From positions 1,736,001 to 1,800,000 of the forward strand of contig JAPYKE020000263.1 of NCBI GenBank assembly GCA_028554795.2: a DNA stretch of 64,000 nucleotides, written 5' to 3'. The DNA comes from Sinohyriopsis cumingii. Lineage: Eukaryota; Mollusca; Bivalvia; Unionida; Unionidae. Shown one piece after another: positions 1,555-64,000 of this stretch (position 1 is its first letter; the number at the start of each line of letters is the position of its first letter). The translations under genes and the position numbers were made by a program. The notes beneath the pieces are model-generated. The model was not told the DNA's origin. It worked only from the letters and a program-made list of their open reading frames with translations, and did no database searches.

Positions 1555-1920
1555 AGTAGTGAATAGGGACGGTCTAGGGACTAGGGAACTTCCATGTTAA
1601 AAAGGGTATATCCACTCTGGGGACTATGTAATTTAACATGGGAGAAAAAAAAAAAATATCCATTCTAGGGACAAGGGGAATTTAACATGGGAGAAAGAAA
1701 AAAAACTATTCACTCTAGGGACAAGGGAAATTGAACATGGGGAATAAATCGTGGGACTGTCTTGGGACTAGGGGAAATGGAACAGGGTCGGGACCCTATT
1801 TTAATAAGGTCCCGACCTGATGGGTCTATGAAAATGGAACAGGCGAAAATTGAAACAGGGAGGGGTCTCTATTTTTTTATTATTTTTTTAAACAAAAAAA
1901 TAAAAAAAGGGGTAGGCAAT
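1555..1920. repeat. E1 terminal repeat region
   Basis: Several degenerate units contain AGGGACAAGGGAAATTGAACATGGG-like sequence, followed by an A/T homopolymer tract and the block AAAAAAGGGGTAGGCAATTGAAAG. The same order (units, A/T tract, GGGGCAGGCAATTGAAAG block) occurs at 51060-51290 at the opposite genome end of E2, as expected for terminal inverted repeats of one virus family. The exact outer end is not resolved. Confidence 0.7.
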
Positions 1921-1930
1921 TGAAAGTCAA

Positions 1931-1968
1931 GATCTTTTCGAGAGATAGGAATGGCCCTGAAAAGGGCC
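1931..1968 (-). terminator. Histone-type 3' end signal (stem-loop + HDE), copy A
   Basis: On the minus strand the 16-nt hairpin GGCCCTTTTCAGGGCC (1968-1953) is preceded by ACCAAA and followed by a GAAAAGATC element (about 1940-1931). The hairpin fits the known histone mRNA consensus GGYYYUHHUHARRRCC with its CCAAA 5' flank, and the purine element resembles the U7 snRNA-binding histone downstream element. It lies 12 nt after the stop codon of the minus-strand gene ending at 1981. Confidence 0.8.
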
Positions 1969-1980
1969 TTTGGTTTTATG

Positions 1981-2226
1981 TTAATATACCCTTAACATAA
2001 AGGGCATCTGTGACATCTTCTTCTTGACCTTAGGCTGTGCCTGACTGCAGGACCATAGATTAAGACTCTTTTGAGGCATCCTTGATGCTCCACATAAGAT
2101 TCTTCGCATCCACAGGCTGGTGTCTGTCCTGTGGATAACTGTCCAGTTGGATCGGACATACATTGATATGTCCGTCCGGAACATCATCGAAGACACAAGC
2201 GTTGAAGATTGTACATCGGTCCACAT
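1981..2226 (-). CDS. Small adintoviral protein of unknown function (81 aa)
   Basis: The frame starts at an ATG 46-53 nt downstream of a minus-strand TATAAATA (2279-2272) and ends 12 nt before a histone-type stem-loop, so promoter, frame and 3' signal are coherent. The product is 81 residues, contains a basic KVKKK stretch near its C terminus and shows no domain I recognise. It is divergent to the gene starting at 2447, with about 220 bp of shared promoter between them. Compared with the cassettes of E2 it may be shortened or frameshifted, as the rest of E1 is decayed. Function is unknown; early regulatory role is only a guess from position next to the terminus. Confidence 0.5.
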   Translation of the reverse strand: MWTDVQSSTLVSSMMFRTDISMYVRSNWTVIHRTDTSLWMRRILCGASRMPQKSLNLWSCSQAQPKVKKKMSQMPFMLRVY

Positions 2227-2446
2227 GTTGGGGTGCTGAGTAACAGGTGAAGGAATGCAGTGAACTGTACTTATTTATAGGGGGAGGAAGGATTGAAACG
2301 GATTGAGTTTGTTGACCAATCCAAACACGCGTTACAAAATTCAGTCAGCCCACGTCCAATCCGAAGAGAGCAGTCTGTGACGTCACATAGTCTATATAGA
2401 TTCGCTAGCGCCTGTGCGTAGTCAATCTAAGCGACAGTTTTTCAAC
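2227..2446. promoter_or_regulatory. Divergent promoter with CRE and CCAAT boxes
   Basis: The interval holds a minus-strand TATAAATA (2279-2272) and a plus-strand TATATA (2393-2398), each about 50 nt from its ATG. Between them are a full palindromic CRE/ATF site TGACGTCA (2378-2385) and CCAAT boxes (2316-2320, 2356-2360). Divergent TATA promoters with CCAAT boxes and histone-type 3' ends resemble replication-dependent histone gene pairs. Function is inferred from motifs only. Confidence 0.6.
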
Positions 2447-3011
2447 ATGACGGAAACTCAGAAAACGATCAGTTTGGGTGCACTGATGGTGGAGACTACC
2501 CAAGGGAACCCAGACTTACTTTCAGAAGAGGTGAATTGGGATTTTGTGGATTTTTTTACCTTGCAAGAATTTGTTCCTGAACCTTCGTCACCTTCTCCTT
2601 CATTACCGCACATGGAAAATTTTAGACAGAGACAGAAAGAAGAATTGGAGAAATTTATACAACAGCAAAAGGAAGTGGAACAAGCTTTTCTCCTACAGCA
2701 ACAGCAGCAAGAAGAAGAGGTAAGAAAAAAACAACAAGAAGAAGACGCAGCAGCAAAGAAACAAGGGTGTCAAAATCAAACGGTCACGGTACTGTTAGAC
2801 ATTTTAGTTAAGAAGTCTGAAACAGATGTATCAGACTTCTTTATTACAGCCGAAGAGAATACGACCTTCCCAAGCTAAACACTCCAACCCTGTGACTACG
2901 CCTACTGCACCATCCTTAGTGATTTCAACGAAATCATCATCAACAGTACGCAGTCCAGAAGTAGGCCTTGGCCATGGCAAAGGCTTAAGACAGTTAAAGT
3001 TGATTGTTTAA
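2447..3011 (+). pseudogene. Glutamine/glutamate-rich coiled-coil adintoviral protein, probably frameshifted
   Basis: The ATG at 2447 lies 50 nt after a TATATA box. The first frame runs to a stop at 2876-2878 (143 aa): an acidic/hydrophobic N-terminal part, a proline/serine linker (about residues 50-62), then a Q/E/K-rich coiled coil (about 65-110). A second frame opens at 2826 and runs to 3011 with a basic PKRIRP stretch that looks like a nuclear localisation signal. The histone-type stem-loop at 3035 lies 24 nt after the second frame's stop but 157 nt after the first, suggesting that a frameshift near 2830-2870 separates two parts of one gene. The layout (short N-terminal part, charged coiled coil, histone stem-loop) recalls the E2 cassettes at 51387-53592. 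Function unknown. Confidence 0.55.
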
Positions 3012-3034
3012 ACTCACCCCTTACACCAAAAAAG

Positions 3035-3072
3035 GCCCTTTTCAGGGCCATCCACGTCTCTCGAAAAGAGAT
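3035..3072 (+). terminator. Histone-type 3' end signal (stem-loop + HDE), copy B
   Basis: GGCCCTTTTCAGGGCC (3035-3050), preceded by CCAAAAAA and followed by ATCCA, matches the histone mRNA stem-loop. A GAAAAGAGA element (3063-3071) follows 12 nt later and is complementary to the CUCUUUU of animal U7 snRNA. It ends the plus-strand gene starting at 2447. Confidence 0.85.
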
Positions 3073-3265
3073 AGGCTTTCAATTGCCAATAACTAATAAA
3101 AACCATTTTACCCAATAGTACCTGTCTGTGTATGAGTGTGCGTGAGTGTAGGTTCTTATTTTAAAATCAAAACCCAAAGACACTTACCTTTTATAATTAA
3201 TTTATTCTTTTATAAATATTTACAATTCACAATTCACAACAGAGCACTTTAAAAAGTTCATAGAC

Positions 3266-3722
3266 TTATTCTGTCTCATTGTTCACTCTCTGTTTTTTTA
3301 ATTTCTTCACCGTCATAGTCCTTTCCTCCTCTTCCTCTTCACTTTCTTCCCTTCTTTTCTTCTCCTGTTTCTTTTTCTTCACCTGTCTGTTTTCTTCCTC
3401 TTCTTCTTCCTCTTCCTCTGAAGAATCCCTCTCTTCTTCTGACTCCTCTTGTTTCTTTTTTGGGCAGTCTGGTGACCAATGTCCTTTTTCTTGACAATAA
3501 TAACAGGTATCTTGACTTTTGTCTCTTCTAACCCCTTTTTTTTCTTTTTTGACGGTCTGGACACTCTGAAGACCAATGCCCTTTCTTCTGACAGATATAG
3601 CAAGTATCTTGACTTTTATCTTGAAAGGAAGGAGAGTAGTCCCTCGGCTGGTCTGAAGAGAATTTTCTAATGACCCCTCGCAAAGCTCTGATGAAACGTT
3701 CGATCTTGGTAGTCTCTTCCAT
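3266..3722 (-). pseudogene. Two-zinc-knuckle protein, frameshifted
   Basis: From an ATG at 3722, about 55 nt after a minus-strand TATATAAA (3784-3777), the frame encodes a CCHC knuckle (CYICQKKGHWSSEC; CX2CX4HX4C). It loses frame in a homopolymer tract near 3537-3550. In the adjacent frame a second knuckle (CYYCQEKGHWSPDC) follows, then a long glutamate/lysine-rich tail ending at 3266. Zinc knuckles of this kind bind single-stranded nucleic acid in Gag and CNBP-type proteins; a similar role is inferred here. The gene converges on the preceding gene and is followed by a plain AATAAA on the minus strand (3206-3201) rather than a histone stem-loop. Confidence 0.65.
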
Positions 3723-7765: not shown

Positions 7766-7780
7766 CCACCCACCAGAAGG

Positions 7781-30971: not shown

Positions 30972-30999
30972 TTGTTAGATAAATAGCAAATAAAATAAG

Positions 31000-31434: not shown

Positions 31435-31472
31435 TTTAGATCACCATTTGGAAAAATGGTAATTATAATAAA

Positions 31473-32903: not shown

Positions 32904-32936
32904 TCAAGTTATTTAGAAAAATATATTTATATAATA

Positions 32937-33330: not shown

Positions 33331-33375
33331 GATTACCGGGATCTCGTTGGGGAAGAGGTCTAAGACTTCCACGTT

Positions 33376-33799: not shown

Positions 33800-33805
33800 A
33801 ATATA

Positions 33806-34831: not shown

Positions 34832-34837
34832 AAATAT

Positions 34838-36015: not shown

Positions 36016-36043
36016 CAACATTAGCACGTTTATTTAAAAACTA

Positions 36044-36721: not shown

Positions 36722-36743
36722 TTAATCAGGTAAATATTATATA

Positions 36744-50655: not shown

Positions 50656-51060
50656 GGGTACGTTTCACTAAAGTGTGTAAGCTGTGATTAAGTTATTTTT
50701 GACGTAAGTTACTCAAGCGACCTTGAGTTAACAGTATTTTCCCGTTTCACTAACATCCCCTAATCGATGCACCAGCGTAAATACTCGCGTAACTTTAAAG
50801 CGTTACTTATTTGCGTTAATTTTACACATTAGAAAAAATGTCGGCTTTTAGTGTATTTTAGCTAAATCAAAATCAAAACTAACCAGACTAATTCCGGGAC
50901 AGAACACTGGCCCTAGATACTTTGGATGACCAAAGTTTAATATCACGATATTTCTTTCCAAGAAACATGACCGATTTGGTGAGAGATGATATAGAGAGAC
51001 CAAAGCTGAGATTCCACCCGGTAGTAGTAAATGGGGATAGATTAGCGTCAATGGGAATTA
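50656..51060 (+). mobile_element. 5' fragment of a PIF/Harbinger-like DNA transposon
   Basis: It starts GGGGTACGTTTCACTAAAGTGTG, a Harbinger-type terminus, and a broken plus-strand frame near 50893-51045 (FRDRTLALDTLDD, ISRYFFPRNMTDLV) resembles the N terminus of Harbinger nucleases. It is cut off by the E2 terminal region. Assignment is tentative. Confidence 0.4.
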
Positions 51061-51289
51061 GCATTAAAAACACCCCTGGGACAGATTAGCGTCAAGGGAA
51101 ATTTAGCATGGAGAAAAATCGTGGGTCAGATTAGCGTCAAGGGAAATTAACATGGAGAAAAATCGTGGGACGGTTTAGCGTCAAAGGAATTTAAACAGGG
51201 TGGGACTTTATAGCGTCAAGGGAAATTGAACATGGGATTTTTTTTTTTTTTAAATTTTTTTAAAAAAGGGGCAGGCAATTGAAAGGCTA
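51060..51289. repeat. E2 terminal repeat region
   Basis: Four degenerate units with GGGACAGATTAGCGTCAAGGGAAATT.ACATGG are followed by a T/A homopolymer and AAAAAAGGGGCAGGCAATTGAAAG, the same order as at the E1 terminus (1555-1920). Confidence 0.75.
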
Positions 51290-51327
51290 TCTCTTTTCGA
51301 GAAATATGGCTGGCCCTGAAAAAGGCC
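51290..51327 (-). terminator. Histone-type 3' end signal, copy C
   Basis: Minus-strand hairpin GGCCTTTTTCAGGGCC (51327-51312) has one G-T wobble, a CCCAAA 5' flank, and then GAAAAGAGAT (51299-51290) as U7-binding-like element. It lies 60 nt after the stop of the 51387-51743 gene. Confidence 0.85.
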
Positions 51328-51386
51328 TTTGGGTTTTCGTCTTCTTCTGCTTCTAGTTTCTTCTTTTTCTCCACCAAGTTCTTATT

Positions 51387-51743
51387 TTATCTCCAACACT
51401 CTTTCTCTTCTTTTCTTTCTTTTTTTTTCTCCTGCTCTTCTTTCTTCTTCTCTTCCTCCTCTTCTTTCTTCCTCTTTTCATTTTCTTCTTCTTTTTCAAT
51501 TTTTTCATTCCATGCTCTCATCCTTATCCTTTCCTCTTCATCCTCCTTCTCCTCCTTTATTTCTTTCAACAGATCACTGATGATTACCTTCATTTTTCGT
51601 AAATTGTTTATCTCCATCTTCACTCGATGGGGACTATAAGAATAGTGATCCTCGTTTAGGTTAACCAACATTTGCTCTATCATTCCTAAATTGTCGAGGA
51701 CGTTTTGCAATTTTTCCATTTTGTCCATTTGGTTAGAAGCCAT
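51387..51743 (-). CDS. Coiled-coil small protein, cassette 1 (118 aa)
   Basis: Intact frame. N-terminal helical part with leucine spacing (about residues 8-60), then a long E/K-rich coiled coil (about 60-115). The ATG lies 50 nt after a TATAAGAA box and a conserved upstream block (51801-51834), and the frame is followed by a histone-type stem-loop. It is the first of three similar cassettes with the same promoter and 3' signal, so the three genes probably arose by duplication. Function unknown; the cassette signals suggest cell-cycle-linked early expression. Confidence 0.7.
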   Translation of the reverse strand: MASNQMDKMEKLQNVLDNLGMIEQMLVNLNEDHYSYSPHRVKMEINNLRKMKVIISDLLKEIKEEKEDEEERIRMRAWNEKIEKEEENEKRKKEEEEEKKKEEQEKKKERKEEKECWR

Positions 51744-51792: not shown

Positions 51793-51834
51793 TTCTTATA
51801 CGAAAAGCGCTGACCTGAAGGAAAACATCCCCCT
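51793..51834 (-). promoter_or_regulatory. Cassette 1 promoter
   Basis: TATAAGAA (51800-51793) is preceded on the minus strand by the block GGGGGATGTTTTCCTTC plus AGCGCTTTTC. The 17-nt block is identical in cassettes 2 and 3. Confidence 0.7.
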
Positions 51835-52308: not shown

Positions 52309-52346
52309 TTTCTTCTCTAGAGTATTGGGTAGCCCTGAAAAGGGCT
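52309..52346 (-). terminator. Histone-type 3' end signal, copy D
   Basis: Minus-strand hairpin AGCCCTTTTCAGGGCT (52346-52331) changes the first pair G-C to A-T without loss of pairing, and its 3' flank is the canonical ACCCA. AGAGAAGAAA follows (about 52318-52309). It lies 33 nt after the frame end at 52379. Confidence 0.8.
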
Positions 52347-52378: not shown

Positions 52379-52756
52379 TTAATGGTGGCACCTTCCAGGC
52401 CTGGCGCCGCATACACATCTTATCCCCCAGTTACTTTTTACCTTTTGAGGGGAGAGAGCAGAGGCAGGATATGTCGCTTCAGAATCCCAATTTTCGCTCT
52501 CTGGGATTCTGAAATTTCTTCTTCTTCTCTCCTTTTCCTCCTCCTCCTCTTCTTTGTATCTTCTCTCCTCCTCTTTGTATCTTCTTTTCTCTTCTTATTT
52601 ATATCTTCTCTCCTCCTCTTCTTTGTTTCTTCTTTCCTCCTCCTCTCTTATCCTTCCCTCCTCCACAATGGCTTCCGCGGCCAGTTCATTTAATATGCGC
52701 CTGGCATATTCCAGATGCACATGAAGTTCCAACAGTTTCTCCAGTCTCGTGTTCAT
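52379..52756 (-). pseudogene. Coiled-coil small protein, cassette 2, one in-frame stop
   Basis: ATG 52756 lies 50 nt after a TATAAATT box. The frame encodes a helical start (MNTRLEKLLELHVHLEYARR), then E/R-rich coiled coil, and meets TAA at 52597-52595 within repeated EERRYK-like units. The same frame then stays open to 52379, 33 nt before the histone-type stem-loop, so the stop is probably an inactivating change. The ARRI/ARRM...E..IVEE-type helix is shared with cassette 3. Confidence 0.6.
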
Positions 52757-52806: not shown

Positions 52807-52848
52807 AATTTATAGTGAAAGCGCGTACGTGAAGGAAAACATCCCCCT
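52807..52848 (-). promoter_or_regulatory. Cassette 2 promoter
   Basis: TATAAATT (52814-52807) is preceded by GCGCTTTCAC and the conserved 17-nt block GGGGGATGTTTTCCTTC, here followed by ACGT. Confidence 0.75.
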
Positions 52849-53184
52849 AAAAACATAAAATTGATCTTACCTAGATCATGACCAAAAAAAATAACAACAA
52901 CGCGCGGACCTAAAAGAAACACTCACTCACTTTTTTATGCTGCCCATCACTATTTTAAAATTTTTTATTAACCACTTCAATAGACTATCCACATACGCAA
53001 AGCAATCCAATCTAACCCCAAATATACACCTCAAACACCAAAAAAGACATCATTTGAATCTACTATCCACACCAACTTACGTGAGCACTTACAAACACAC
53101 AAACACATACCCTCACATTTTTTATAAAAGAGTTAGCGTTTATATTCACACTACTCTACCTACACATCGGCAAATCGATCGTTA

Positions 53185-53222
53185 TTTCTTTTCTTGAGTA
53201 TTGGGTAGCCCTGAAAAGGGCT
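53185..53222 (-). terminator. Histone-type 3' end signal, copy E
   Basis: Minus-strand hairpin AGCCCTTTTCAGGGCT (53222-53207) has the canonical ACCCA 3' flank and then AAGAAAAGAAA (about 53195-53185). It lies 30 nt after the stop at 53253. Confidence 0.85.
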
Positions 53223-53252: not shown

Positions 53253-53592
53253 TTAGTTTCTAAGAATGCGATGTCCTCTGAGGATAGACTTTCTGGCGAT
53301 AGGTCTGCTTCTTCGAAAAGAGAAGAACTCTTTGGTGTCGATACGACAATCGACAAAGCCTCTGTCAGCGTCAGGTTGCTGCTGCTGCTGCTCTTGTTGT
53401 TGTTGCTGCTGTCTCTGAAGTCTGTACTTCTCTGTCCATTCTTCTTTTTCCCTGTTTATTTCTTCTCTGAAGAGCTCTTCTATCAGGTCTTCAGTGATTT
53501 TTAACATTCTTCTGGCTTCGGTATCAGACTGTGTCTGACCCTATGCAAATTCACGTAGGCTTCGTTGAGTTTAGCTAGTTTGGAGCACATCT
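53253..53592 (-). pseudogene. Coiled-coil small protein, cassette 3, frameshifted
   Basis: The ATG at 53592, 50 nt after a TTTAAGAA box, opens a frame that changes near 53540 (a GGG run); the sense continues in the frame ending at 53253. It has an N-terminal helix, an EARRML helix like cassette 2, an E/K-rich coiled coil, a Q-rich tract (QQQQQQEQQQQQ) and a basic SFRRSRPIARK end. It shares promoter block and histone-type 3' end with cassettes 1 and 2. Confidence 0.6.
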
Positions 53593-53641: not shown

Positions 53642-53683
53642 TTCTTAAAGTCAAAGCGCGGACGTGAAGGAAAACATCCCCCA
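53642..53683 (-). promoter_or_regulatory. Cassette 3 promoter
   Basis: TTTAAGAA (53649-53642) is preceded by GCGCTTTGAC and the 17-nt block GGGGGATGTTTTCCTTC, then ACGT, as in cassette 2. Confidence 0.7.
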
Positions 53684-54022: not shown

Positions 54023-55336
54023 CTAGTAATCTAGGATGACTTCTCTCAAACTGTTGATTTCTATGGTATTATCGAATTCTGCATACAGGATGACGTTCAC
54101 CGTTTCATCAGGGTCTCGGTCTTTAAACTGAATTTCCACACGAATCTGGCCGGATTTTATAGGGTGGAAATGTCCCTTGTCGCTGCCTTGGTCTGGAGTG
54201 AAATCAAAAGCCCACAAAGCGTAGCCTCCTGCATAATCCTCGTACGTAATACCGTGACTGGTATTGGTTCCTAACTGTCCGGTGGCTTCGTACAAGGACA
54301 AGTACGATCTCAAGTAATTCTTCTTTTTAAAGTCAGGTTCGAAAGGTCGGGTACACAAGGTCTTGCCATCGCGACTGACTTCGATTTTGGACAAGCCAAA
54401 GTGTTGAAAGTAGAAAGGATTTTTTTCGGCAGCTCCGTTGAAGGCTGTATTCTCGACGATACCAACGATCAAACGTTTGGGTAACTGTCCTTGGAACAGA
54501 TGATCTTCGATCATGGATCGCTGTCCCTTGGGAATGGTGAAGGTTTTCACTTCCACGCGTCGTATGGGATACTTGGCGGTCGTTCTGCTCAACGTCTGAC
54601 TGATGTCGTTTCCCACTTTAGGTAACACTTCCACACGGCGTACGTAGAGTCTGGCTTCTAGGATTTTGGATTTGTAACCGTCACTATCAGCCATCAAATG
54701 GAAAGCGGCACTGCTACGATTCAGTCTCAGGCGGACATCCACCCCGTTCAGCAAATACTTTTCTTGCAACCACATGTCCAAATGCAAACGATCCATCAGT
54801 TCTAAACTTGTGTCGGCTCCCGTGATTCTCTTTCTTCGTTCTACAAATCCATCATTGTTGTCTTTCTTTTCATCAGTTTCCAATATTTCAAACTTGGTAG
54901 GTTCGTCAGCTTCCCATACCACACAGGCATTGAGATGAGTGTTCTTGGCATCTATTCCGTACGTCAAGAGATTTTCCAGGTAGGCACGATAAGGGTAAGT
55001 ATCCATGCTGCTACTGACCAGTTTGTTATTCAAGTACAAGTCCACTCCACTGAACAAGGAATGCATGAAATTGTTGACGGGAGCTCTTGCTTCATCGTCT
55101 ATAGCACCTCCAGTCTTATCTAGAATTTTGACTTTCAGGTACAAGTAACTGCTATTCAGATCGATGTAATCTTCGAGCTGTCCTTTGATTTCAAACTCGA
55201 TGGGAGCGGAATCGGTCAGTGAGGAGACGGGGTGAAATTCCACCCACTGGGATTCTTGCATCGTCATCATGGTGGGGGGCATGGCAAACAGGTCCAGTTC
55301 CGTCTTGGAACAAGCGCAAGATTCTCGGTGCATCAT
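54023..55336 (-). CDS. Adintovirus major capsid protein (hexon-like)
   Basis: Intact 437-residue frame starting MMHRESCACSK. Beta-rich, with the conserved Polinton capsid features: WVEFHPVSSLTDSAPIEF near residue 33, YIDLNSSYLYLKVKI near 58, VNNFMHSLFSGVDLYLN near 87, PYRAYLENLLTYG near 115, and the C-terminal FDFTPDQG and VEIQFKDRDPDETVNVILYAEFD. It forms the trimeric double-jelly-roll capsomer of the shell. It is the last gene of the late block, 19 nt after pX, and uses a duplicated AATAAA region downstream. No defect seen. Confidence 0.9.
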   Translation of the reverse strand: MMHRESCACSKTELDLFAMPPTMMTMQESQWVEFHPVSSLTDSAPIEFEIKGQLEDYIDLNSSYLYLKVKILDKTGGAIDDEARAPVNNFMHSLFSGVDLYLNNKLVSSSMDTYPYRAYLENLLTYGIDAKNTHLNACVVWEADEPTKFEILETDEKKDNNDGFVERRKRITGADTSLELMDRLHLDMWLQEKYLLNGVDVRLRLNRSSAAFHLMADSDGYKSKILEARLYVRRVEVLPKVGNDISQTLSRTTAKYPIRRVEVKTFTIPKGQRSMIEDHLFQGQLPKRLIVGIVENTAFNGAAEKNPFYFQHFGLSKIEVSRDGKTLCTRPFEPDFKKKNYLRSYLSLYEATGQLGTNTSHGITYEDYAGGYALWAFDFTPDQGSDKGHFHPIKSGQIRVEIQFKDRDPDETVNVILYAEFDNTIEINSLREVILDY

Positions 55337-55779: not shown

Positions 55780-56702
55780 TTACGAGTCGTTAGAGAACCG
55801 TTTTCGAAAATGGAGTTTCACCGTGACTTTTCCTTTGGTGAATGGAATATTTTGTCCCAGATCTCCTTTTATAGCAATGTTGACCGTGTCCAAATACGAC
55901 TTGCTGACCGGCAAATAGTGAGGATGAACAAATTCGCGGTGGACGTGGTAAGTGTTTCCACCTTCCTCGTCAGCGTCCGTGGCAGAATCTACTTTGAAAG
56001 GAATGACACGCAGTAACGGTACGGAGGTGTGTCCCACCACGTTGTACTCCACCACATCGGAATACACAAACATCAGATTCAGTCCTTGGTTCAGTTCTAC
56101 CGGGGCACGAAATAACTTGCTAAAAGACTCGTTGTCGTAAACGATGGGTAATTCGTTTTTCTTGAGCATGGTTTTTCTCATGTCCATGTCTCCGCCCAAC
56201 ATGTCAAAAAATTCAGGACAAAATAAAATGGACATGATTTTACTTCGTTCAAATTCATCAAGAAGCGACGAGCTGCTTTGTGGTACTCCAGGGTGACACT
56301 TTTGTTGACATGCTCCAAAGCTTTCAGAAACAGGACATTAAACCTGGAGGCTATGGTGCTGACCAAATGTTGACCACTAAAATAATAGCCTGGGGGAATG
56401 AACAAGTGATAGGTGGTGTACTTTTGTGTACGGGTTTTCTTGTCATATTTGACATTGCTATCCATCCACTGTTGCATTTGCTCGTCATGAACTTCCACAT
56501 CAAAAAAATTTTGATTGGGAAGGACATTGAGGACTTGGGTCGGGTGAATCATTTCTACTAAAGCCACTTCCCAATGGGCTTCGTGATCTAACGGGATGGC
56601 CTGAGGTAATTTGGCCGTGTAACAGCACAACGTGTTCTTGGGAAACACCTCCATGGAACTGTCACTGGGTAAAGTTAAGTAAAATTGGCTTTGGTGACTC
56701 AT
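55780..56702 (-). pseudogene. Penton (minor capsid) protein, one frameshift
   Basis: The start ATG overlaps the stop of the previous gene (ATGA, 56702-56699). The first part reads FYLTLPSDSSMEVFPKNT, HWEVALVEMIHP and IPPGYYFSGQHLV, the standard opening of Polinton/adintovirus pentons. The frame changes near 56230-56245 and continues to 55780 with LNQGLNLMFVYSDVVEYNVVG, a VPLLRVIPF block and a C-terminal VKLHFRK. The single-jelly-roll pentamers close the capsid vertices. A single indel is the only lesion. Confidence 0.85.
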
Positions 56703-57112
56703 AATTCCAGAGTTATGTGGCTGTCCGAAGGGTTAGTGGACGTCAGAGGCGTGTCTCCGTCTAAAATGGGGTTCTGGTTGTGGTTGAAGTGGTGACTGGC
56801 ACTGGCACTGGACACAAGGTTCCCGTGGTTCCCGTTCGAGGTGAATTTCAGGAAGGGATTAGGAAGCAGGTAACCGATGCAACTGCTCAATAAAATGGTC
56901 CACAATTGTTTGTCTCCTTGTTGCAAACTCAAATTGGCGATGGCTGCCCCGATGACACAATACACCCCGAAGATTTGGCAGAAAAAGACGATTTGCGTTT
57001 TAGGCACACGTTCTCCACACCACACCCACAAAGGTTGTTTTTGTAAATCTTGCACAGAAGAACTAGGTGAAGGAGGAGTGGTCGACGTAGCTGCGTCTCT
57101 GTGAAAAGGCAT
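56699..57112 (-). CDS. Conserved two-TM adintovirus membrane protein
   Basis: From ATG 57112, 137 residues. A P/S-rich N terminus is followed by VPKTQIVFFCQIFGVYCVI and WTILLSSCIGYLLPNPFLK, two hydrophobic segments joined by a short polar loop (NLSLQQGDKQL), then a polar tail. This pattern (FFCQ...Y.VI...NLS...LLSS..GY.LPNP) recurs in many animal Polintons by my recollection; the function is unknown. It overlaps the penton gene by 4 nt. Confidence 0.75.
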   Translation of the reverse strand: MPFHRDAATSTTPPSPSSSVQDLQKQPLWVWCGERVPKTQIVFFCQIFGVYCVIGAAIANLSLQQGDKQLWTILLSSCIGYLLPNPFLKFTSNGNHGNLVSSASASHHFNHNQNPILDGDTPLTSTNPSDSHITLEL

Positions 57113-57127
57113 GATGGTCACTTCTTT

Positions 57128-58218
57128 TTATAGTCGATGACTTGCGATCCAAGAATCAAAACTGGGTGGATATCCTTTCCAACGTACTTTGACTTCTTTG
57201 ACACGTCGTTTGCCCACTTTACGGGTTCTGCGTTCGAGAATGCTTTCGATGTCGTACACGTCGTCTTCTTTTTTGGTGACACGTTGTAACTCGGGCAAAT
57301 AAAACGTTCCTTTGAGCACTTCTCCGTTCATGTCTTCCAATTTATAGACGGCAGGATGACGGCCATGTACTCGTCCAGTGACGCGAAACAATTCGGTCGT
57401 CCAGTTAGGTAAGTAACCTTTGTCGAAAGTGCGTTTGGTTTTGCCAATGCGCACCCAATCTCCTACGGTCAACACTCCACTTTTCTTGGGGACAGCCCTC
57501 GTCGGGGACGTACCAAACAGACGCTCAAACACCAACACTTCGTTGTCGGGAGTCACGTCTTGTGTGGCACGTCCGATGCTTCGATGGTAAGATTGGTTGT
57601 ACGCTTGCACCAGGTGCGGTAAGATGTCGATGTACTTCAGAGTCTGGTGATGCGAAAAATATTTCCACATGCGTTCTTTCAAAGTGCGTTGAAAACGTTC
57701 CACGATGCTGGCTTGGTTTCGGGATTCTCGGTGGTAAAAAAATGAATGTCACGTTTCTTTAATTCTTTTTGGAAAGCTTGGTTCAGAAATTCGGTACCTT
57801 TGTCCGTTTGCCATCGAAGAGGGTGACGACCGCTTTGTTTCAACACTCGTTGCAGGGCTCGCACTAACTCGCTGCTCGATTTGGAAGTCAAGGGTACGAC
57901 CCAGGCAAATTTGGAAAAGACGTCGATGACACAAAACAAATATTTGTAGCCACGATTGTAGCTGGCCAAATGAGAGACATCGGCTAAATCGGCTTGCCAT
58001 TGATGATCGATGCCTTCCACTCGGGTGCGACTTCTGGCAAACTTGCGTCGAATGGGTTTGTGTAAAGTGTAGGTAGCTTGTTCTTGTAACCATCGTTGCA
58101 CTTGAGGTCAACGGAGACTTTTCAGTCGCGTTTTGGTAGTACGATACAATTTTTGAACTCCTGCGTAACCTGCAGGATGGGAGGGATCGTAGTAAATGCT
58201 GGCTAAGACTTTTTCCAT
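57128..58218 (-). pseudogene. Retroviral-type integrase with chromodomain, two lesions
   Basis: ATG 58218 begins the N-terminal domain (SIYYDPSHPAGYAG...KLYR). TGA interrupts at 58110-58108, where CGA is the likely precursor. The core follows with catalytic Asp in HQWQADLADV and Asp in RWQTDKGTEFLN; a frameshift near 57705 separates it from the third residue, Glu in MERFQRTLKERMW. The C-terminal part has an SH3-like segment (VGDWVRIGK, FDKGYLPNWT) and a chromodomain at the end (VYDIESILE, VKVRWKGYPPSFDSW). Chromodomain-tipped integrases are usual in Polintons and may steer insertion to marked chromatin. Confidence 0.9.
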
Positions 58219-58239
58219 TTTTTTGTGTTGGTTGGTGTG

Positions 58240-58851
58240 TTAATAAGACACCCACTCTTGGAGGATGCTACTCTTTTTCTCTTGGGGTATTTTCTTGGAT
58301 TGCAATGCTTTGCGTGTGCGACCGGCAATAGGTGTTGAAGAGGAGGAGGATGTCTGAGCGGGGGATATCGGTTCTTGTTTCACTTCTGTCTTCACTTCTG
58401 TCTTCACTTTCTTTTTCTCTTGTGATGAAGAAGGGGTGGCCATCATCTTTTTAATCCATCCAATTCTGGAGGTAGGTGGTGTTGTTAACTTGCGTACTTT
58501 TTCTGGTGGAGTTTGAAACCCTTCTTCTTCTTCTTCTTTTCCTTTTTCTGTCTTGGTCACTGGTACTGGTACTGGTACTGGTGATGGTGCTGGACTTTTC
58601 ATCAAGGTCTTAAAATCTTTCAGAGTGGGTAGAGCTGTTTCGTCTAAAGCTTTCTGGTGAAAGAGTTGCAGTCGTTGCAAGAGTTGACCGTACTTTTGCG
58701 ATTTTTCTGTTTCGGACAAATCTTGGCGATCCATCAAGGACTGCAATTCGTGTTGTAACTGGGACATCTCGCTCAAATGGGGATTGGGAGGCAAATGCGG
58801 GGTGCGTTTTTCTTGCCACCGATGGTATTCCATCCATCGTTTGTAAGGCAC
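58240..58851 (-). CDS. Unknown adintoviral protein, start unclear
   Basis: The frame opens upstream of 58851 without an ATG; the track of conserved-looking residues starts LALVPYKRWMEYHRW, and GTG (58851) or a lost ATG further up could be the start. N-terminal helical domain (NPHLSEMSQLQHELQSLMD, DLSETEKSQKYGQLLQRL), then low-complexity P/V repeats, E-runs and K/T/S-rich linkers. Similar N-terminal domains occur near the integrase in other animal Polintons by memory; role unknown, perhaps a core or scaffold protein. Confidence 0.6.
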   Translation of the reverse strand: MPYKRWMEYHRWQEKRTPHLPPNPHLSEMSQLQHELQSLMDRQDLSETEKSQKYGQLLQRLQLFHQKALDETALPTLKDFKTLMKSPAPSPVPVPVPVTKTEKGKEEEEEGFQTPPEKVRKLTTPPTSRIGWIKKMMATPSSSQEKKKVKTEVKTEVKQEPISPAQTSSSSSTPIAGRTRKALQSKKIPQEKKSSILQEWVSY

Positions 58852-58924
58852 TAAAGCTAGTTTTCGTCCTTCCGTGGGGTTGTCAGGGGTCGATTCTGAG
58901 ATCTTGGGACTTCCAAGGGCCTTT

Positions 58925-59311
58925 TTATCTTGCTCCCACCAGTCCTCCCAACATGGTTCCCAAGACTCCTTTCAGTATGGGGCCTAACAAGAGAGGCAAA
59001 ATGCCTCCACGTTGGACCAACATCTTCTTTTTTTGACGAATGGGAATTTTCTTTTGAACCATTTGGCGAAGAACGTGACGATGTTTGCCTAAGCATTGTT
59101 TCTGGTGTTTGTACAAAGGGATCGTGCCTTTCAAAACGTTCAAACAACATACGCACACGGTATCGATGACCTCTTTGGAGGCTGTTTGAATGAGTTTTTT
59201 TCGTAGGGGTGGAGAAGCTTTGGACAGGACAGATAACATGTCCCCATGTTTGGCTAAACGTGGTGGCAGTCCTTTCCTTTTCTTTCCTTGGGGTTTTCTG
59301 GAGGGTGACAT
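58925..59311 (-). CDS. Core-type protein with hydrophobic RGG-ILPLLL end
   Basis: ATG 59311 lies 60 nt after a minus-strand TATAAAAAA (59376-59367); 128 residues. A helical domain (LSVLSKASPPLRKKLIQTAS, two or three cysteines CVCCLN) leads to KKKMLVQRGGILPLLLGPIL, a basic-to-glycine-hydrophobic transition, ending in a glycine-rich tail. This is a widespread Polinton protein pattern thought to be membrane-active or DNA-condensing. The first domain is a paralogue of the N-terminal part of the next gene (59371-60318). Confidence 0.7.
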   Translation of the reverse strand: MSPSRKPQGKKRKGLPPRLAKHGDMLSVLSKASPPLRKKLIQTASKEVIDTVCVCCLNVLKGTIPLYKHQKQCLGKHRHVLRQMVQKKIPIRQKKKMLVQRGGILPLLLGPILKGVLGTMLGGLVGAR

Positions 59312-59370
59312 CTTTGAGTCTTCAGGAGCACCAAAAAAACACTGATACCCTACTCGGTCACAGGCCTTTT

Positions 59371-60318
59371 TTATACTGGAACGCGTCGCCACTGATTGTC
59401 TTTACGTCGTATCAGTTTGAGGACAGGCATGACACGTCGTGGAGGGGTACGCAACGGACTAAATCGAGCCAGTTCTTGCTTGGACAAATCCAGTAAACTT
59501 TGTAACATGCCCGATCTTTCATGGACTTTGATTTTGGGAGAAGGTACTTTGTGAGCAGCAGCCACTGCCACTAAATTGGAGGGTCCTGCCACTGGGGAAG
59601 TTCTTTTGGGGGTCATCAACGGAGAAGTTCTTGGTGTGATCAACGTCTCCAAGTACTCTTCAGTTCCTGGTGTCATCAACGGAGAAGTGGACAAACGTGA
59701 GGATGCCGGAGACGCAGTCACTGCCGTGGCAGATCGTGGTTTGCGAGTGTAAGGTTGCATCCTGGCCGAAGTGCCTCTCTTGCGACTAGTTTTCTTCTGT
59801 GGACTTTTCTTTTTCTGGGGATTTTGTCTCTGTTCCTTTTTCTGGGGGCTTCTTTTCTTTTTCCGGGGTGGTGGTGTCTGGTCAGAGGAGGGTCCTGCCA
59901 CTGGAGAAGTTCTCCTTGGGGACCTGGTCTTTTTCTTCTTGGGGCTTCGTTGGACTTTTGTCTTGGGGATAACTTTGGGGGCATTAGGATCCCATCTTAA
60001 GAGAGAGCAAATGATGACCCCTCCTAGAGTACCGCTCCCTCCAGGTTTCAAAATGATTTGTTTTTTGGTCTGAGTGTCGATGCGGGAATCGGCCAGTTGG
60101 ACCAAAGCGACTTTGTTTCGATCAAAAAAGCGTTTGGTTTGATGAGGAATCTGAATGATTCCTTGGAGTAATTGACGTGCCGTCACCGTGAACCATCGTA
60201 AGACTTCTTTGAGACTAGCTTCTAAGACACGTGCTCGTATTTGTGGATTTTTTTCTCGACTGATGCCATACAAGGCACGAATCAATTTGACGGGAAGATG
60301 CGACTGAAGGGACGTCAT
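59371..60318 (-). CDS. Large basic core-like protein, paralogous N-domain
   Basis: ATG 60318; 315 residues, intact. Residues 9-110 (LIRALYGI...FFDRNKVALVQLADSRIDTQTKK, GGSGTLGGVIICSLL) mirror the layout of the 58925-59311 protein: helical domain, basic turn, glycine, hydrophobic end. The remainder is an extremely K/R/S/P/T-rich disordered region (SPKKKK, PPPRKKKRSPQKK) with repeated TSPVAGPS and TSPLMTP phrases, suited to binding packaged DNA like adenovirus core proteins. A TATAAAAA box precedes it near 60360. Function inferred. Confidence 0.7.
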   Translation of the reverse strand: MTSLQSHLPVKLIRALYGISREKNPQIRARVLEASLKEVLRWFTVTARQLLQGIIQIPHQTKRFFDRNKVALVQLADSRIDTQTKKQIILKPGGSGTLGGVIICSLLRWDPNAPKVIPKTKVQRSPKKKKTRSPRRTSPVAGPSSDQTPPPRKKKRSPQKKEQRQNPQKKKSPQKKTSRKRGTSARMQPYTRKPRSATAVTASPASSRLSTSPLMTPGTEEYLETLITPRTSPLMTPKRTSPVAGPSNLVAVAAAHKVPSPKIKVHERSGMLQSLLDLSKQELARFSPLRTPPRRVMPVLKLIRRKDNQWRRVPV

Positions 60319-60374
60319 GTTCACACTGTGTGTGAGACAGACGAAAAGGGTCTGAGGTTTTTATAGATTTTTTT

Positions 60375-61118
60375 TTATGGGGAGTGAAATGAAGTCGAGG
60401 ACGGAGACGTGTACAGGACAGGCCCTCCGTCTTGACACCAGTGGTGAAACAAGTGGGTACGAAATCGCAAATCCTCAGGAGTCGTAGGTTTCAAATCGAC
60501 GAGTAAATAGGCGTGTGGCGTTTGAGTGGCATCGTCGTACGCCTGAGTCAGCCAAGGCGTTCCTAACTGTTTGGCTAAGACTTGCACTTGCGATTTATCT
60601 CGAGGGCTTTTAAACAAGACCACGTAATGCGCATTGAGACTGATGGCGCGATGGGCTTTACTTTGTTGAAACAAATTTTGGGTGATGTAAACGACACTGG
60701 CATTACGGTGATGCCCTTTGCGCGTAAACCACAGTTTAATTTCTTCTTCGTCTTCTCCTAACATGTCGTCGAAAATGACCAAATGGGTTTGACGGGAGTC
60801 AGAGACGATACCGTCGTCTTCTTTAGGAATGCCTTCCACAAACACGATGGAATCGCCTTGACTTTCTCGCAAGAGGCTGTACGCCGATTGCCGCTCTTTG
60901 TAACACCACACGATCCGTTGAGGTGGCCGATCGATCAAATGATGTTTATGTTCGATCAAACGTTTGACGAATTCGGTTTTGCCTGAACCGCTAGGTCCAG
61001 CAATGAGCATGTTAAAGGGATGGCGAAGATACAAAGCCTCCCAACTGGCACGATCTAAGTGTTCGTCGATGACCTTGACAGTAGAGGAAGAGGGAGCAGA
61101 GACAGCAGAGGTAGCCAT
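60375..61118 (-). CDS. FtsK/HerA-type packaging ATPase, intact
   Basis: ATG 61118, 50 nt after TATATAAA (61172-61165); 247 residues. Walker A is LIAGPSGSGKTEFVKRL (about residues 32-48), Walker B HLVIFDDMLGE (about 100-110), then VVYITQNLF (sensor motif), HYVVLFKSPRD. This is the A32-like ATPase that pumps the genome into capsids; the Polinton at 45015 has a broken counterpart. The longer frame upstream (to 61223) is probably leader, because the TATA lies inside it. Confidence 0.9.
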   Translation of the reverse strand: MATSAVSAPSSSTVKVIDEHLDRASWEALYLRHPFNMLIAGPSGSGKTEFVKRLIEHKHHLIDRPPQRIVWCYKERQSAYSLLRESQGDSIVFVEGIPKEDDGIVSDSRQTHLVIFDDMLGEDEEEIKLWFTRKGHHRNASVVYITQNLFQQSKAHRAISLNAHYVVLFKSPRDKSQVQVLAKQLGTPWLTQAYDDATQTPHAYLLVDLKPTTPEDLRFRTHLFHHWCQDGGPVLYTSPSSTSFHSP

Positions 61119-61187
61119 CGTGTGAGAAATGTCACTTGTGACACGAAAACAAACAAGACGAGAGTTTATATACTTTTTCAGAACACG

Positions 61188-61195
61188 TTTATTGA
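61188..61195 (-). terminator. AATAAA poly(A) signal after the membrane-protein gene
   Basis: ATTCAATAAACG on the minus strand lies directly after the stop at 61201 and 16 nt before the TATA box of the next gene. Confidence 0.65.
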
Positions 61196-61200
61196 ATGTT

Positions 61201-61547
61201 TCAAACATGAATACGAAAGACAAAAATACATAAAAGCCAAAGGCTTAAGTACAAGAATAAAAGGCACATGATAACCATGAACGTGGAATAAACACAAGTG
61301 TCTGTACAACATGTTTTGGGTAAAGTTCTAACCAGTTCTATAGTAGGGGGTAAGGTCACACAAGTGTCCTCCCGAAAGGGTCTTTCAGGCCTGTCCACGA
61401 CAGTCCCGTCCTGGGTGACGGGTTCTTCTGGCACCGTCACTAACACGGGTTGAAAAGTAACTTTTTTCCTTGAATAACTCTCGTGCATACTGGGCCACCT
61501 CTTGGGTCCAAGCCAAACCAATCTGGTTTCTTCTTCGTCAACGACAT
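61201..61547 (-). pseudogene. Single-TM small membrane protein, probably frameshifted
   Basis: The only ATG upstream of the main body (61547) is in another frame and begins MSLTKKKPDWFGL; the main body reads LVWLGPKRWPSMHESYSRKK onward, suggesting a frameshift near 61500-61515. The middle is P/V/T-rich with acidic residues and cysteines (KTCCTDTC). The C terminus is a long hydrophobic helix (FMVIMCLLFLYLSLWLLCIF) with a short basic end: a tail-anchored membrane protein. It occupies the place held by the BIR gene in E1. No known family. Confidence 0.55.
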
Positions 61548-61573
61548 GGTAAGTTACTTCAATGAACAATGAA

Positions 61574-64000
61574 CTATCGATCTTGCCTAGGGTTCCTTTT
61601 TATATACAGACCAATACCGACGTGACCGTACGGCAACGTAAAGTGATTGGGAAGTCGCACTCGCTTCTGGTATACAATTTGATAGACTTTTTCCAAGGGT
61701 CGACTGACGATGGGGTGAGTGGGTAAACGTACAATCTTGTTCGGTTGATAGGTGGTCACTTTAAAGTTTCCATCCTCTCCCGATTGCAAGGCTTCTTTCA
61801 ATACCCCAAAGTTGACCACTCGACTGGTACGATGATTCAGAGTCAGTCCTTTCACTTTGCACGTCGTGTGCACTTCTTGTTTGTCACGGTATTCGTAGCC
61901 GTAATTTTTGGGGCCGCCACTGACGAAACTTAGAATCTTGTCGTCGGGATGCTCGTCTGTCCAGGCTCCTAAACGGTCTCCTTCGATGTCAGGGTGATGT
62001 TGACTCGGGTGATGGATGTAAATGCAACTGTCCGTGTCAAAGTACAGGACGCGTTCTTCTAACAGTTCTAAAGCTTCGTACAATTTTAAGCGAGCATGAG
62101 CTGTCACGTAAGCCGCAATGATGACATTTCCAAAAGGGTCGTCTTGTACAAAGTCCAGATCTTCTTCGTAATTGACCAAGATCAAATCCTCTCGAACGAC
62201 GTCCACGTGTTTCATGTATTTGGTTTTGTCGTGAATCATCTGGAAGTAGCGGGAAGGTTCTGTCAAATATTCCGTCTTGGGTAAACAAGGTCGTTGTGCC
62301 ATTTTACCCCACAAGCAATTTAACATCACTTTGGCAAACGATCGCCTGCCTTCGTTTTTTTCGATGTGGTCTAAAGAGATGCCTTCTTCTTGGTAGTATT
62401 TCTCTTTGAATTGTATTTGGTCTTCGGGAGTGTGACACCAGGAAGGATAGCCGCTGGATTCTTGTTTCAGTTTCAAAAAGGCATCCACTTAGTCGGCGAA
62501 AATGCCTTTCTGAGTAGGGTCACCCTTGTGGTACTGTTGTGTCTTGGGAAAGTGGCAAATTTCGTACACTTCTAACAGTTGGTATCCCATGTCCAGAGCT
62601 TTGAACAATTCCACGCTGACCCAGGTTCCCGTCAAGGCACGTTCTTCCTGGCTGTGATGGCAAGGTTGGTCCTGGTTGCACGTTTCGGCACAAGTACGGC
62701 ACAAGGGAAACATCAGTTTGCCTTGACAATGGTGAGGTAAGACGGGATGGTATAGGTTCGTGGGAGGCAAAACTTTGCACTTGATCAAGCCTTCGTATTG
62801 TCGAATGTTTTTCAGGTCGATGTGTTCCGTCAGCAATTGTGGGTGCCCTACGGGAAAGCGACAATATTTGCACACGTAGGGATACAGAGAACACACGTCC
62901 AAGTATTTGATTTCTTCTCCTTTCTCTTCGTCGGCTTGGTACAGCAAACAGGTGGCATTGGTCCTTCCTCCGTACAAACTATCCCTCGGGTTCAACGGGT
63001 CCATGAACTGGTAACTTTCCACGAGGCGTTTAAACACGGGATCGGTTTTCATACGGTGATCGTACTCGTGTTCCCACATTTCCACCACTTGGTATCCTTG
63101 CTGTTCTAACTTTAGGCGCCGTTGACAAGTGTCCTGGTACAAGTCTTCCATGGTTCGTTGTAAAAACTGATTTTTAGTGTCACGGTCAGGGTAACAGACG
63201 GGACATCCATGAAATAAGCAACCGTTAAACTCGTACACGATCTTGGGGTTTTCTAAGTCCAAGCCATCGACCGAATACGTTCCGATGGTCTTTTCGTCTC
63301 CTCCGTTGCGGGCATGCTGAATCCATTTGTCTTCCTTGTCGCACAAGTAATGTAACCAGCGTAGGGCTGTGACCGAGTATTGACGTTTGACAAAGTGGAT
63401 CGTTTGAGGACTGATGACAGCCACCGTGTTTTCAGGCATGAATCGTTGGCGGTACACTAAGGAACACGCTTTGGCAATGGTGCAAGCTTCTTTCAAAGGA
63501 TCGACCCCTCCGTGTTCCATGAACTGTTCTCGAAATTTTCCACAGCAACGTCGTAAAATGTCCCCGTCGGAACGACAATACTTTAGCATTTCTTCCTGAA
63601 AGTCGAAAGCGTCGGAGGCGTGAGCCTGGTACCAAGCGTAGAAAGCTTCTCGTTGTTCGGTACGCATGTTGTCGGGGTCGTAATAGTGAGCCTCAGGCAA
63701 ATGGGGTAGAACGGCGTGTTGATTGGCTTCCGTATTGAAAAAGTGTGGAAAGTACCCTTTAGCCATTTCTGTCATTCCAAACGTTTTAGGCATTCCTCTC
63801 AAAGGCATGGCCAAATAGCTCATCGAATCTTTAAACTGTACTTGTCCCACTTGCATGAAAATGATTTTGGCTCCGTTCAAAGTCACTTTAGGACGCTCGG
63901 TGCCTTGTTCCGTATAGTATCTCAAAAGAAACTGTCCATCGTATCCGGAGAAATTGTGAGCCATCACCGTGGCATGACGATGACAATCTCCGTAACGTTC
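61574..64000 (-). pseudogene. Protein-primed DNA polymerase B, one stop, N terminus beyond window
   Basis: One frame runs from the window's right edge to 61574 with a single TAA at 62491-62489, where E1 has TAT. It holds exonuclease-II-like NFSGYDGQFLLR (63955), a zinc-rich insert, motif A KYLDVCSLYPYVCKY (62905), motif B AKVMLNCLWGKMAQ (62335) and motif C YFDTDSCIYI (62040), all with catalytic residues. The N-terminal zinc and exonuclease I parts lie outside the window. It replicates the viral genome with protein priming. With only one substitution-type lesion, it is nearly functional in sequence; a sequencing error cannot be ruled out. Confidence 0.9.

Follow-up and report, generated by a model that had tools for sequence, protein, structure and literature searches.

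The stretch of DNA analysed here, the window, comprises 64,000 nt from the mollusc Sinohyriopsis cumingii (assembly GCA_028554795.2, contig JAPYKE020000263.1, positions 1,736,001-1,800,000 of the forward strand). It carries E1 and E2, and, judged from its genes, the element that they represent is a highly multiplied adintovirus/Maverick-like DNA-virus element in the mollusc genome. The element is about 17 kb long (by eye) and encodes a family B DNA polymerase (PF03175, E 7e-32, Pfam), an A32-type packaging ATPase (PF04665, E 8.2e-8, Pfam) and a putative retrovirus-type integrase, of which the C-terminal ORF, the part scanned with Pfam, has a chromodomain (PF00385). The E2 capsid protein, a candidate double jelly-roll major capsid protein identified by homology, has 803 homologues in sequence comparison and no Pfam match. 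TIRs are present; the left terminal repeat of E2, the counterpart of the right one, is found in L136, outside the window. The flanks CCCGGT and CCCGAT, a candidate 6-bp target duplication, are 5/6 alike by eye. The polymerase, the ATPase, the chromodomain integrase end, the homologous capsid and the TIR are common to this element and to adintoviruses/Mavericks (Polintons), which bears out the adintovirus identity proposed in an earlier note on this DNA. By contrast, the terminal genes described below have no Pfam match above the cut-off.

Table 1. Coordinates of terminal-gene features and control genes in the window
Feature	Positions	Strand	Basis or remark
Gene A, CAATTGCC block	1915..1922	-	sequence comparison
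Gene A, core GAAAAG of downstream (putative U7-type) element	1934..1939	-	13 nt past hairpin
Gene A hairpin (E1 left end)	1953..1968	-	exact GGCCCTTTTCAGGGCC; RF00032 1928-1973, 33.5 bits
Gene A, 81-aa ORF	1981..2226	-	stop 12 nt before hairpin
Divergent A/B promoter	2227..2446	.	motifs that we take to be CCAAT, TGACGTCA and TATA
Gene B, first part, 143 aa	2447..2878	+	split in E1; stop 155 nt before hairpin
Gene B, second part, other frame, 61 aa	2826..3011	+	stop 22 nt before hairpin
Gene B hairpin (E1), GGCCCTTTTCAGGGCC	3034..3049	+	RF00032 3029-3074, 35.2 bits, above gathering
Gene B, core GAAAAG of downstream element	3063..3068	+	sequence; 13 nt past hairpin
Gene B, CAATTGCC block	3080..3087	+	sequence
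E2 right terminal repeat	51022..51332	.	~45-nt tandem repeats and hairpin cassette; extent by eye
g3 hairpin GGCCTTTTTCAGGGCC	51312..51327	-	RF00032 28.6 bits; inside right TIR
Gene g3, 118 aa, Lys/Glu-rich	51387..51743	-	ORF reading
H2B/H1-type promoter box, g3	51806..51829	-	3 mismatches to H2B
g2 hairpin AGCCCTTTTCAGGGCT	52331..52346	-	RF00032 28.1 bits
Gene g2, 53-aa frame to stop (probably broken)	52595..52756	-	ORF reading
H2B/H1-type promoter box, g2	52820..52843	-	2 mismatches to H2B
21-nt stretch identical to host H4 promoter, upstream of g2	52899..52919	-	sequence comparison
g1 hairpin AGCCCTTTTCAGGGCT, compensated first pair	53207..53222	-	RF00032 30.2 bits
Gene g1, 84-aa frame	53253..53507	-	shorter frame starts upstream (by eye)
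H2B/H1-type promoter box, g1	53655..53678	-	1 mismatch in 24 to H2B
E2 capsid gene	54023..55336	-	control; AATAAA at 53909-53914 and 53811-53816; no hairpin <=400 nt
E2 core-gene ORFs (PolB pieces, A32-type ATPase, chromodomain integrase end, four unnamed)	55780..64000	-	controls

Hairpins behind the terminal genes

The earlier note had described two divergent small genes of E1, each ending in a histone-type hairpin on its own strand. Both hairpins are real and lie on opposite strands, and the downstream element that had been placed at 12-14 nt is found as GAAAAG starting 13 nt past each of them. Two further details hold in part. The CCAAA 5' flank precedes the minus-strand hairpin, whereas the plus-strand hairpin is preceded by AAAAA; a distance of 12-24 nt from the stop applies to the 81-aa ORF and the 61-aa frame but not to the 143-aa frame. 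Of 26 gene-B copies, 17 have a single open frame of 183-195 aa (the other nine are shorter than 183 aa), so the gene is split in the E1 copy.

Beyond what the note had described, three further hairpins lie in the window at the right end of E2, behind genes g1, g2 and g3, and two more E2 hairpins are found past the window end; the H2B/H1-type promoter match discussed below is likewise an addition. All five cassettes in the window have a CAATTGCC-like block downstream. The core genes of E2 show no such hairpin: none was found within 400 nt of the stop in any of the eight ORFs at 55780-64000, or in any of the nine once the capsid gene is included. AATAAA occurs over the same distance in just two of these nine, the capsid gene and one PolB piece, which are thus the only ones with a candidate ordinary end.

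Could these hairpins be chance palindromes or an assembly artefact? The window contains five matches at <=2 mismatches, as against none in 100 shuffles, and element copies are numerous and dispersed over many contigs; nothing was found that speaks for either reading. Chance is thus rejected, and an artefact is hardly conceivable.

It might also be proposed that the hairpins act as DNA within the TIRs, in replication or integration, and that their likeness to histone ends is incidental. The outermost hairpins, those of genes A and g3, do lie inside the terminal repeat, and each hairpin of the E1 pair sits within one arm of a 57-nt inverted repeat that is imperfect (86%). However, the cassette also stands in sense orientation behind genes B, g1 and g2, which are internal and lie outside the TIR; internal hairpins in three of E2's five genes thus make a pure TIR function unlikely. 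Moreover, host histone genes have the same loop, spacing and downstream element, and the promoter boxes at the right end match as well. Taken together, a role as DNA seems very unlikely.

Likeness to host histone genes

How closely do the viral gene ends resemble those of the host? In the S. cumingii genome the H3, H4, H2B, H2A and H1 genes form a tandem repeat of about 8.3 kb, and all five types end in a like hairpin followed by GAAAAG, at 13 nt in H3, H4 and H2B and at 14 nt in H2A and H1. In the window the downstream element stands at 13 nt in all five cassettes, as GAAAAG in four and GAGAAG in g2. Past this element, host H2B and H2A have a TCAATTTTG-like block, as do the viral cassettes, and CTCTAGAAAAGA, which is present in 19/20 g1 copies, matches host H2B without mismatch along 12 nt. 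When the part following the hairpin in H2B was compared with those of genes A and B of E1, g3, g2, g1 and one further gene-B copy, 0/200 shuffles were as good in each case (2/200 for the copy at L028). The viral genes differ from the host histone genes in that their first stem pair can be A-U and that they reside in a mobile element.

The similarity extends to the promoters of the right-end genes. The 24-nt box upstream of g1, g2 and g3 matches H2B and H1 better than any of 300 control stretches, and 0.05 such boxes would be expected per mononucleotide-shuffled 64 kb. Among 22 further loci with the box, 10 have an exact copy; none was found in seven control promoters. One of these controls, the promoter of a zinc-knuckle gene, has 11 nt in common with H2B near the start site, a match distinct from the 24-nt box, and scores 22 against a maximum of 21 among the 300 control stretches. 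No H2B/H1 box precedes the left-end genes A and B; the promoter side of gene A shows a weak similarity to host H2A (1/300 controls as good).

The promoter match to host H2B/H1 strengthens the reading of the viral ends as histone-type. We consider it probable, at roughly 0.84, that the terminal genes A, B, g1, g2 and g3 are built like host replication-dependent histone genes, from which we infer SLBP/U7-processed, non-polyadenylated, S-phase mRNAs. CTNGAAAAGA is a candidate viral sequence that may pair with host U7 snRNA; an Rfam search of the genome for the host U7 gene returned one weak match (29.3 bits, E 0.27), unconvincing by eye. A histone origin of the terminal proteins themselves was also considered and rejected: no histone family was matched at E <= 1 in a Pfam scan of seven terminal-gene products and one other protein, or at E <= 0.01 by the two E1 proteins.

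Are the transcripts nevertheless polyadenylated? AATAAA follows the hairpin in 14/20 gene-B copies, in gene B of E2 and in both genes of E1, and stands farther off in g1 (+283 from the stop); host H4 has two AATAAA downstream as well. Its presence behind many gene-B hairpins makes back-up polyadenylation possible, and human H2AC18 mRNA can occur in both forms, polyadenylated and non-polyadenylated (PMC9756948). On this evidence the hairpin might bind SLBP for stability or translation while the mRNAs are mainly polyadenylated at the downstream AATAAA. However, neither AATAAA nor ATTAAA is found downstream within 418 nt of the stop of E2 gene A or within 400 nt of the stops of g2 and g3. The downstream element has also retained its host spacing, a feature that should matter for cleavage alone. 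Mainly polyadenylated mRNAs are therefore regarded as unlikely.

Copies in the genome and in relatives

The gathering score of RF00032 is 34 bits, and in the window it is passed by gene B of E1 alone. Genome-wide there were 75 scored matches, all above gathering, and the 70 that were fetched all belong to this element. The hairpin is conserved among related copies within the S. cumingii genome, a point on which the earlier note had made its reading depend: it is present in 40/40 copies chosen without regard to it. These comprise 20/20 gene-B copies found by protein alone (14 exact, the other six with one pair lost) and 20/20 g1 copies chosen via the capsid gene, all exact. Among partner hairpins that had not been used for fetching, 24/30 have all six pairs, and in the internal right-end genes pair 1 has been exchanged from G-C to A-U. 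The downstream element is less constant in two copies: it has been lost in gene A of L013, and ATAAAAG replaces GAAAAG at L041.

Part of the agreement among copies reflects descent, since many of them are young; 116 of 150 scored genome copies of gene A are 100% identical, the E1 copy included. In a profile of 17 left ends, conservation is 1.0 for hairpin A, 0.964 for hairpin B and 0.870 for the whole-region mean, although hairpin A had served to fetch 13 of the 16 added loci. Hairpin B does not stand out in this profile, 207/1205 windows being as high. For gene A, dN/dS is ~0.125 (26 copies, a rough estimate, with 9/26 gene-B frames below 183 aa), which suggests, roughly, that the terminal-gene coding regions are under purifying selection. 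Median dS is 0.92 for gene A and 0.12 for gene B.

The promoter and 3' parts look histone-derived and many copies are recent, so the flanks of host histone genes could once have been picked up and now be passive cargo. There is a parallel for such capture, as three other polinton-like viruses carry host rRNA genes that are probably inert (PMC12220804). However, the cassette stands behind coding genes of more than one kind (types A, B, C and D), a compensatory pair change separates gene classes whose coding regions appear to be selected, and the read-through tail of P0132, a more distant homologue (61% identical, BLASTP), seems to encode a histone-type cassette block that is still readable. Inert capture is thus considered extremely unlikely.

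The earlier note had called for a scan of relatives with RF00032. Four distant genome-contig loci (L001-L004) gave no match; L001 ends ~0.8 kb past its last core gene, and L002-L004 may or may not keep terminal genes. In viral contigs no relatives were found via the capsid, PolB, gene B or the hairpin-plus-flank pattern. A looser hairpin pattern matched seven viral contigs, with four distinct sites by eye and no histone-like downstream element (by eye), a yield that we estimate to be about at chance level.

A proposed S-phase control of viral genes

What might an element gain from histone-type gene ends? In the proposed mechanism, Pol II transcripts of the terminal genes would be bound by SLBP at the hairpin, the downstream element would pair with the U7 snRNP, and the histone cleavage complex would cut a few nucleotides past the hairpin and leave the transcript non-polyadenylated. 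With such ends, terminal-gene expression would follow S phase; transcription might be linked to histone locus bodies, and a likely use would be to restrict production of the terminal-gene proteins to cells in which DNA is being replicated. The non-polyadenylated state, SLBP dependence and S-phase gating of the viral mRNAs are predicted here from sequence. Somewhat less firmly, but with better than even odds, we propose that the terminal genes of an animal DNA virus have come to be controlled like histone genes, through a host histone promoter box at one end and host histone 3' processing at both. The virus would thereby gain S-phase timing, avoid poly(A) control and perhaps use histone locus bodies.

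The SLBP/U7 pathway is not known to serve genes other than those of histones. If the proposal is correct, these viral genes would be natural non-histone clients of the pathway, breaking the histone-only rule, and would show how viral expression can be timed to S phase by simple means. Poly(A)-selected RNA-seq could then miss such genes. With so many copies of the element in a single genome, the idea lends itself to a direct test in tissue RNA.

The claim that such gene ends were previously undescribed stands for adintoviruses and Mavericks, for which a search of the literature, as far as its texts were available, returned no description. It needs qualifying for the wider class: a collection of polinton-like viruses and virophages, related to the present element and including integrating elements of about 20 kb, counts six matches to the Rfam histone 3'UTR stem-loop without comment (PMC12220804). 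In the available text of that paper the matches are counted only, with none in cryptophyte elements, and nothing is said of their position, genes, downstream element or function. If the proposal holds, a scan for histone-type ends could reveal hidden genes in other adintoviruses, and these six matches would be the first candidates.

Two other viral systems show partial likeness. Mimivirus mRNAs end at palindromic hairpins, but there both the cut at the hairpin and the addition of poly(A) are made by cytoplasmic viral enzymes, whereas the hairpin described here is of host histone type (PMC4402537). SARS-CoV-2 engages host SLBP, which in that case acts on ribosomal frameshifting, unlike the histone-type 3' end of the present element (PMC12166091).

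Histone-type cassettes in E1 and E2

The earlier note had placed a 16-nt histone-type hairpin behind each of two divergent small genes, A and B, of the Maverick-like element E1, and both hairpins are present exactly at these positions on opposite strands. It had also described an AAAAGA-type element 12-14 nt downstream; GAAAAG is found 13 nt after both. With the Rfam model of the histone 3' UTR stem-loop (RF00032, gathering score 34), the plus-strand hairpin scores 35.2 bits and the minus-strand hairpin 33.5 bits. A second such element, E2, adds three hairpins at 53.2, 52.3, and 51.3 kb, giving five matches in the window with at most two mismatches and none in 100 shuffles. The rest of the window, including another virus-like element at 30-45 kb, has no RF00032 match at E up to 1. 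The five cassettes can be aligned over 79 columns and consist of the hairpin, 13 nt, GAAAAGA or GAGAAGA, and a block resembling CAATTGCC; the downstream element lies at 13 nt in all five, in the form GAGAAG in g2, one of the three right-end genes of E2 (g1-g3).

E2 encodes PolB, an A32-type ATPase, and the end of a chromodomain integrase. Its capsid protein has 803 homologues and, among the 120 listed, all those named to species are from bivalves, except one labelled as a bacterial MAG. Together with the named relatives of the host's H1, these names place the host among the molluscs, probably the bivalves. The element extends beyond the window end, and its left end was examined separately, in locus L136. 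There, genes A and B are open over 78 and 186 aa, respectively, each with an exact hairpin, and the terminal repeat resembles that of the right end. The PolB DNA of E1 and E2 is 88-92% identical. Gene B of E1 is split, and the right terminus of E1 was not found within the window.

Other genes were noted nearby. A BIR (inhibitor of apoptosis) frame at 7766-8164 on the plus strand (PF00653, E 6.9e-14) adjoins the E1 PolB pieces and is possibly a gene of E1. A gene for a zinc-knuckle protein (CCHC; PF00098, E 1.2e-6) whose tail is charged lies tail to tail with gene B in L136 and at window positions 3528-3722. The different virus-like element, which lacks an RF00032 match, spans 30507-45002.

Domains of the other virus-like element in the window
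Feature	Position	Strand
Double jelly-roll domain	31473-32444	
Weak helicase match	42801-43328	
Phospholipase A2-like domain	44499-45002	minus

Copies of the cassette in the host genome

Does the cassette belong to the element? In the 2.9-Gb host genome, 75 RF00032 matches, the best candidates, received scores, 69 of them at 42.6-45.6 bits and six at 34.5-36.5. Among the 70 fetched for inspection, all have the hairpin, and in 69 it is followed by both AAAAG and a block resembling CAATTGCC; L013 alone has neither. None of the 70 appears to be a host-histone-like gene, judged by the 3' flank and, where shown, the ORF. Histone genes of the host reach 35.0-39.4 bits, and may be missing from the 75 because only the best candidates receive scores.

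Copies were also picked by protein, irrespective of the hairpin. The best 150 of 35,136 gene B candidates are all at least 97% identical, and 148 have no stop; in 20 short 3' flanks from these 150, the hairpin is always at the same place, 14 times exact and six times with one substitution that breaks one pair. The best 96 of 28,935 capsid candidates are all at least 98% identical and stop-free, and exact AGCCCTTTTCAGGGCT is present in 20/20 downstream stretches taken from them. With gene A of E1, 116 of the best 150 matches (26,791 candidates) are 100% identical, the window copy included. The protein searches point to a recent amplification of the element; the identities are those of best matches and are unrepresentative of the whole family. 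The identical E1-type gene A copies occur although E1 frames are split, which may reflect the recent spread of a version that was already partly broken.

Thirty additional hairpins were found in 29 of 30 loci fetched via one hairpin (none in L038), in a scan tolerating few mismatches, which strongly decayed partners escape; in L024 and L027 the additional hairpin may be that of a neighbouring copy. All six pairs are formed in 24 of the 30. In the internal right-end genes, the first stem pair is A-U in place of G-C, both sides having changed. Together, the counts show that the cassette is part of the element; since many copies are young, they do not by themselves imply selection.

Likeness to host histone genes

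The host histone repeat of about 8.3 kb carries H3, H4, H2B, H2A, and H1. The terminal hairpin is GGCCCTTTTTAGGGCC in H3 and H4, GGCCCTTTTCAGGGCC in H2B, GGCCCTTTTAAGGGCC in H2A, and GGTCCTTTTCAGGACC in H1, and GAAAAG follows after 13 nt (H3, H4, H2B) or 14 nt (H2A, H1). The viral copy L041 has ATAAAAG at this position. In 19/20 copies of g1, the 12 nt CTCTAGAAAAGA are identical to host H2B. Farther downstream, TTTCAATTTTG of H2B and TCAATTTTGCC of H2A resemble the viral TTTCAATTTGCC, whereas the resemblance is weaker in H3, H4, and H1. When post-hairpin sequences were locally aligned with seven viral cassettes, 0, 0, 0, 0, 0, 0, and 2 of 200 shuffles were as good for H2B. The corresponding ranges were 2 to 71 for H4 and 0 to 65 for H1, and several of these alignments are therefore without significance. 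The cis-acting parts of histone processing are present in the viral ends, in the host's own form.

The likeness extends to promoters. The host H2B promoter contains a 24-nt box, GATGTTTTCCATCACGTCCGCGCT, which recurs with one change in H1 and, in reverse orientation, with four changes in H2A. The box lies upstream of g1, g2, and g3 with one, two, and three mismatches, respectively, and the scores of these regions against H2B and H1 are equalled by 0 of 300 control stretches taken from the window. With up to six mismatches it occurs in 22 of the 70 RF00032-fetched loci (exactly in 10), a count affected by the differing parts of the element that these loci cover; 0.05 are expected per mononucleotide-shuffled 64 kb. 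In addition, 21 nt upstream of g2 are identical to the H4 promoter (0/300 controls as good), a match that is weaker for g3 (3/300) and g1 (6/300). The box is absent from seven control promoters of hairpin-less viral genes. One of these, that of the zinc-knuckle gene, has near its start site an 11-nt stretch in common with H2B, and its score of 22 exceeds the maximum of 21 in 300 control stretches.

The regions upstream of genes A and B are without the box; that of gene A shows weak similarity to host H2A (1/300 controls as good). The divergent A/B promoter (window 2227-2446) contains CCAAT, TGACGTCA, and TATA motifs. Its conservation (0.908) is nearly equal to that of gene B (0.924), and synonymous divergence is far higher in gene A.

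Predicted 3' end formation and the terminal proteins

By way of analogy, the terminal genes bring to mind, in their position and small size, the early genes of other linear DNA viruses. In histone mRNA, the stem-loop is bound by SLBP, the downstream element base-pairs with the U7 snRNP, and the nuclease CPSF73 cleaves; during S phase, the active processing complex is located in histone locus bodies (PMC9756948). By this route, the terminal genes would give non-polyadenylated, S-phase-gated mRNAs. An Rfam search of the genome identified no host U7.

Could these mRNAs be polyadenylated instead? AATAAA lies past the hairpin in 14/20 gene B copies (within a short fetched stretch). The same holds for E2 gene B, for genes A and B of E1, and for g1, at +283 from the stop. 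None is found in 418 nt downstream of E2 gene A or within 400 nt of the g2 and g3 stops. Such signals are still compatible with histone-type ends, because the host H4 3' region has two and human H2AC18 mRNA is produced both ways (PMC9756948). Only two of nine E2 core-gene ORFs, the capsid gene and one PolB piece, are followed by AATAAA within 400 nt, and ordinary ends are therefore demonstrated for few core genes; the capsid gene, with two AATAAA downstream, would have one. Downstream of a distant capsid gene (L002:11734-11798) there is a twister-P1 ribozyme-like match of 28.9 bits, below gathering.

The earlier note knew of no description of such ends in Polintons or adintoviruses. As regards the stem-loop this has to be qualified: six 'histone 3'UTR stem-loop' matches are counted among the non-coding RNAs of a polinton-like virus and virophage collection, none of them in cryptophyte elements, and the text of that section adds nothing on them (PMC12220804). 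As regards genes, neither viral genes ending in a histone signal nor a histone promoter on such genes were found among the best-matching papers of a mostly open-access literature on adintoviruses, Polintons/Mavericks, viral mRNA with histone stem-loops, and SLBP/U7 in viruses and transposons (PMC11071296 included). RF00032 had no match in four distant relatives (symbiont and other bacterial assemblies), and the viral contigs searched yielded no relatives.

The proteins of the terminal genes appear to be under selection, given rough dN/dS values from the 70 loci, in sets that contain truncated frames, of 0.125 for A (26 copies), 0.45 for B (26), and 0.24 for gene C, a further terminal-gene type (8). 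No Pfam family was above cut-off for their products. By eye, the gene B product is acidic in its N-terminal part, rich in Gln/Glu in the middle, and basic in the tail. It has 20 homologues in the protein collection (BLASTP identity 55-88%). One of these, P0132 (61% by BLASTP, 70% in alignment), continues beyond the point where the others stop, into a tail, PISGPPTSLEKR..VNCQ, that matches an in-frame translation of hairpin, GAAAAG, and CAATTGCC (RPFSGPPTSLEKR*TFNCQ in L040). From this protein sequence, we infer that a more distant relative is likewise followed by the cassette.
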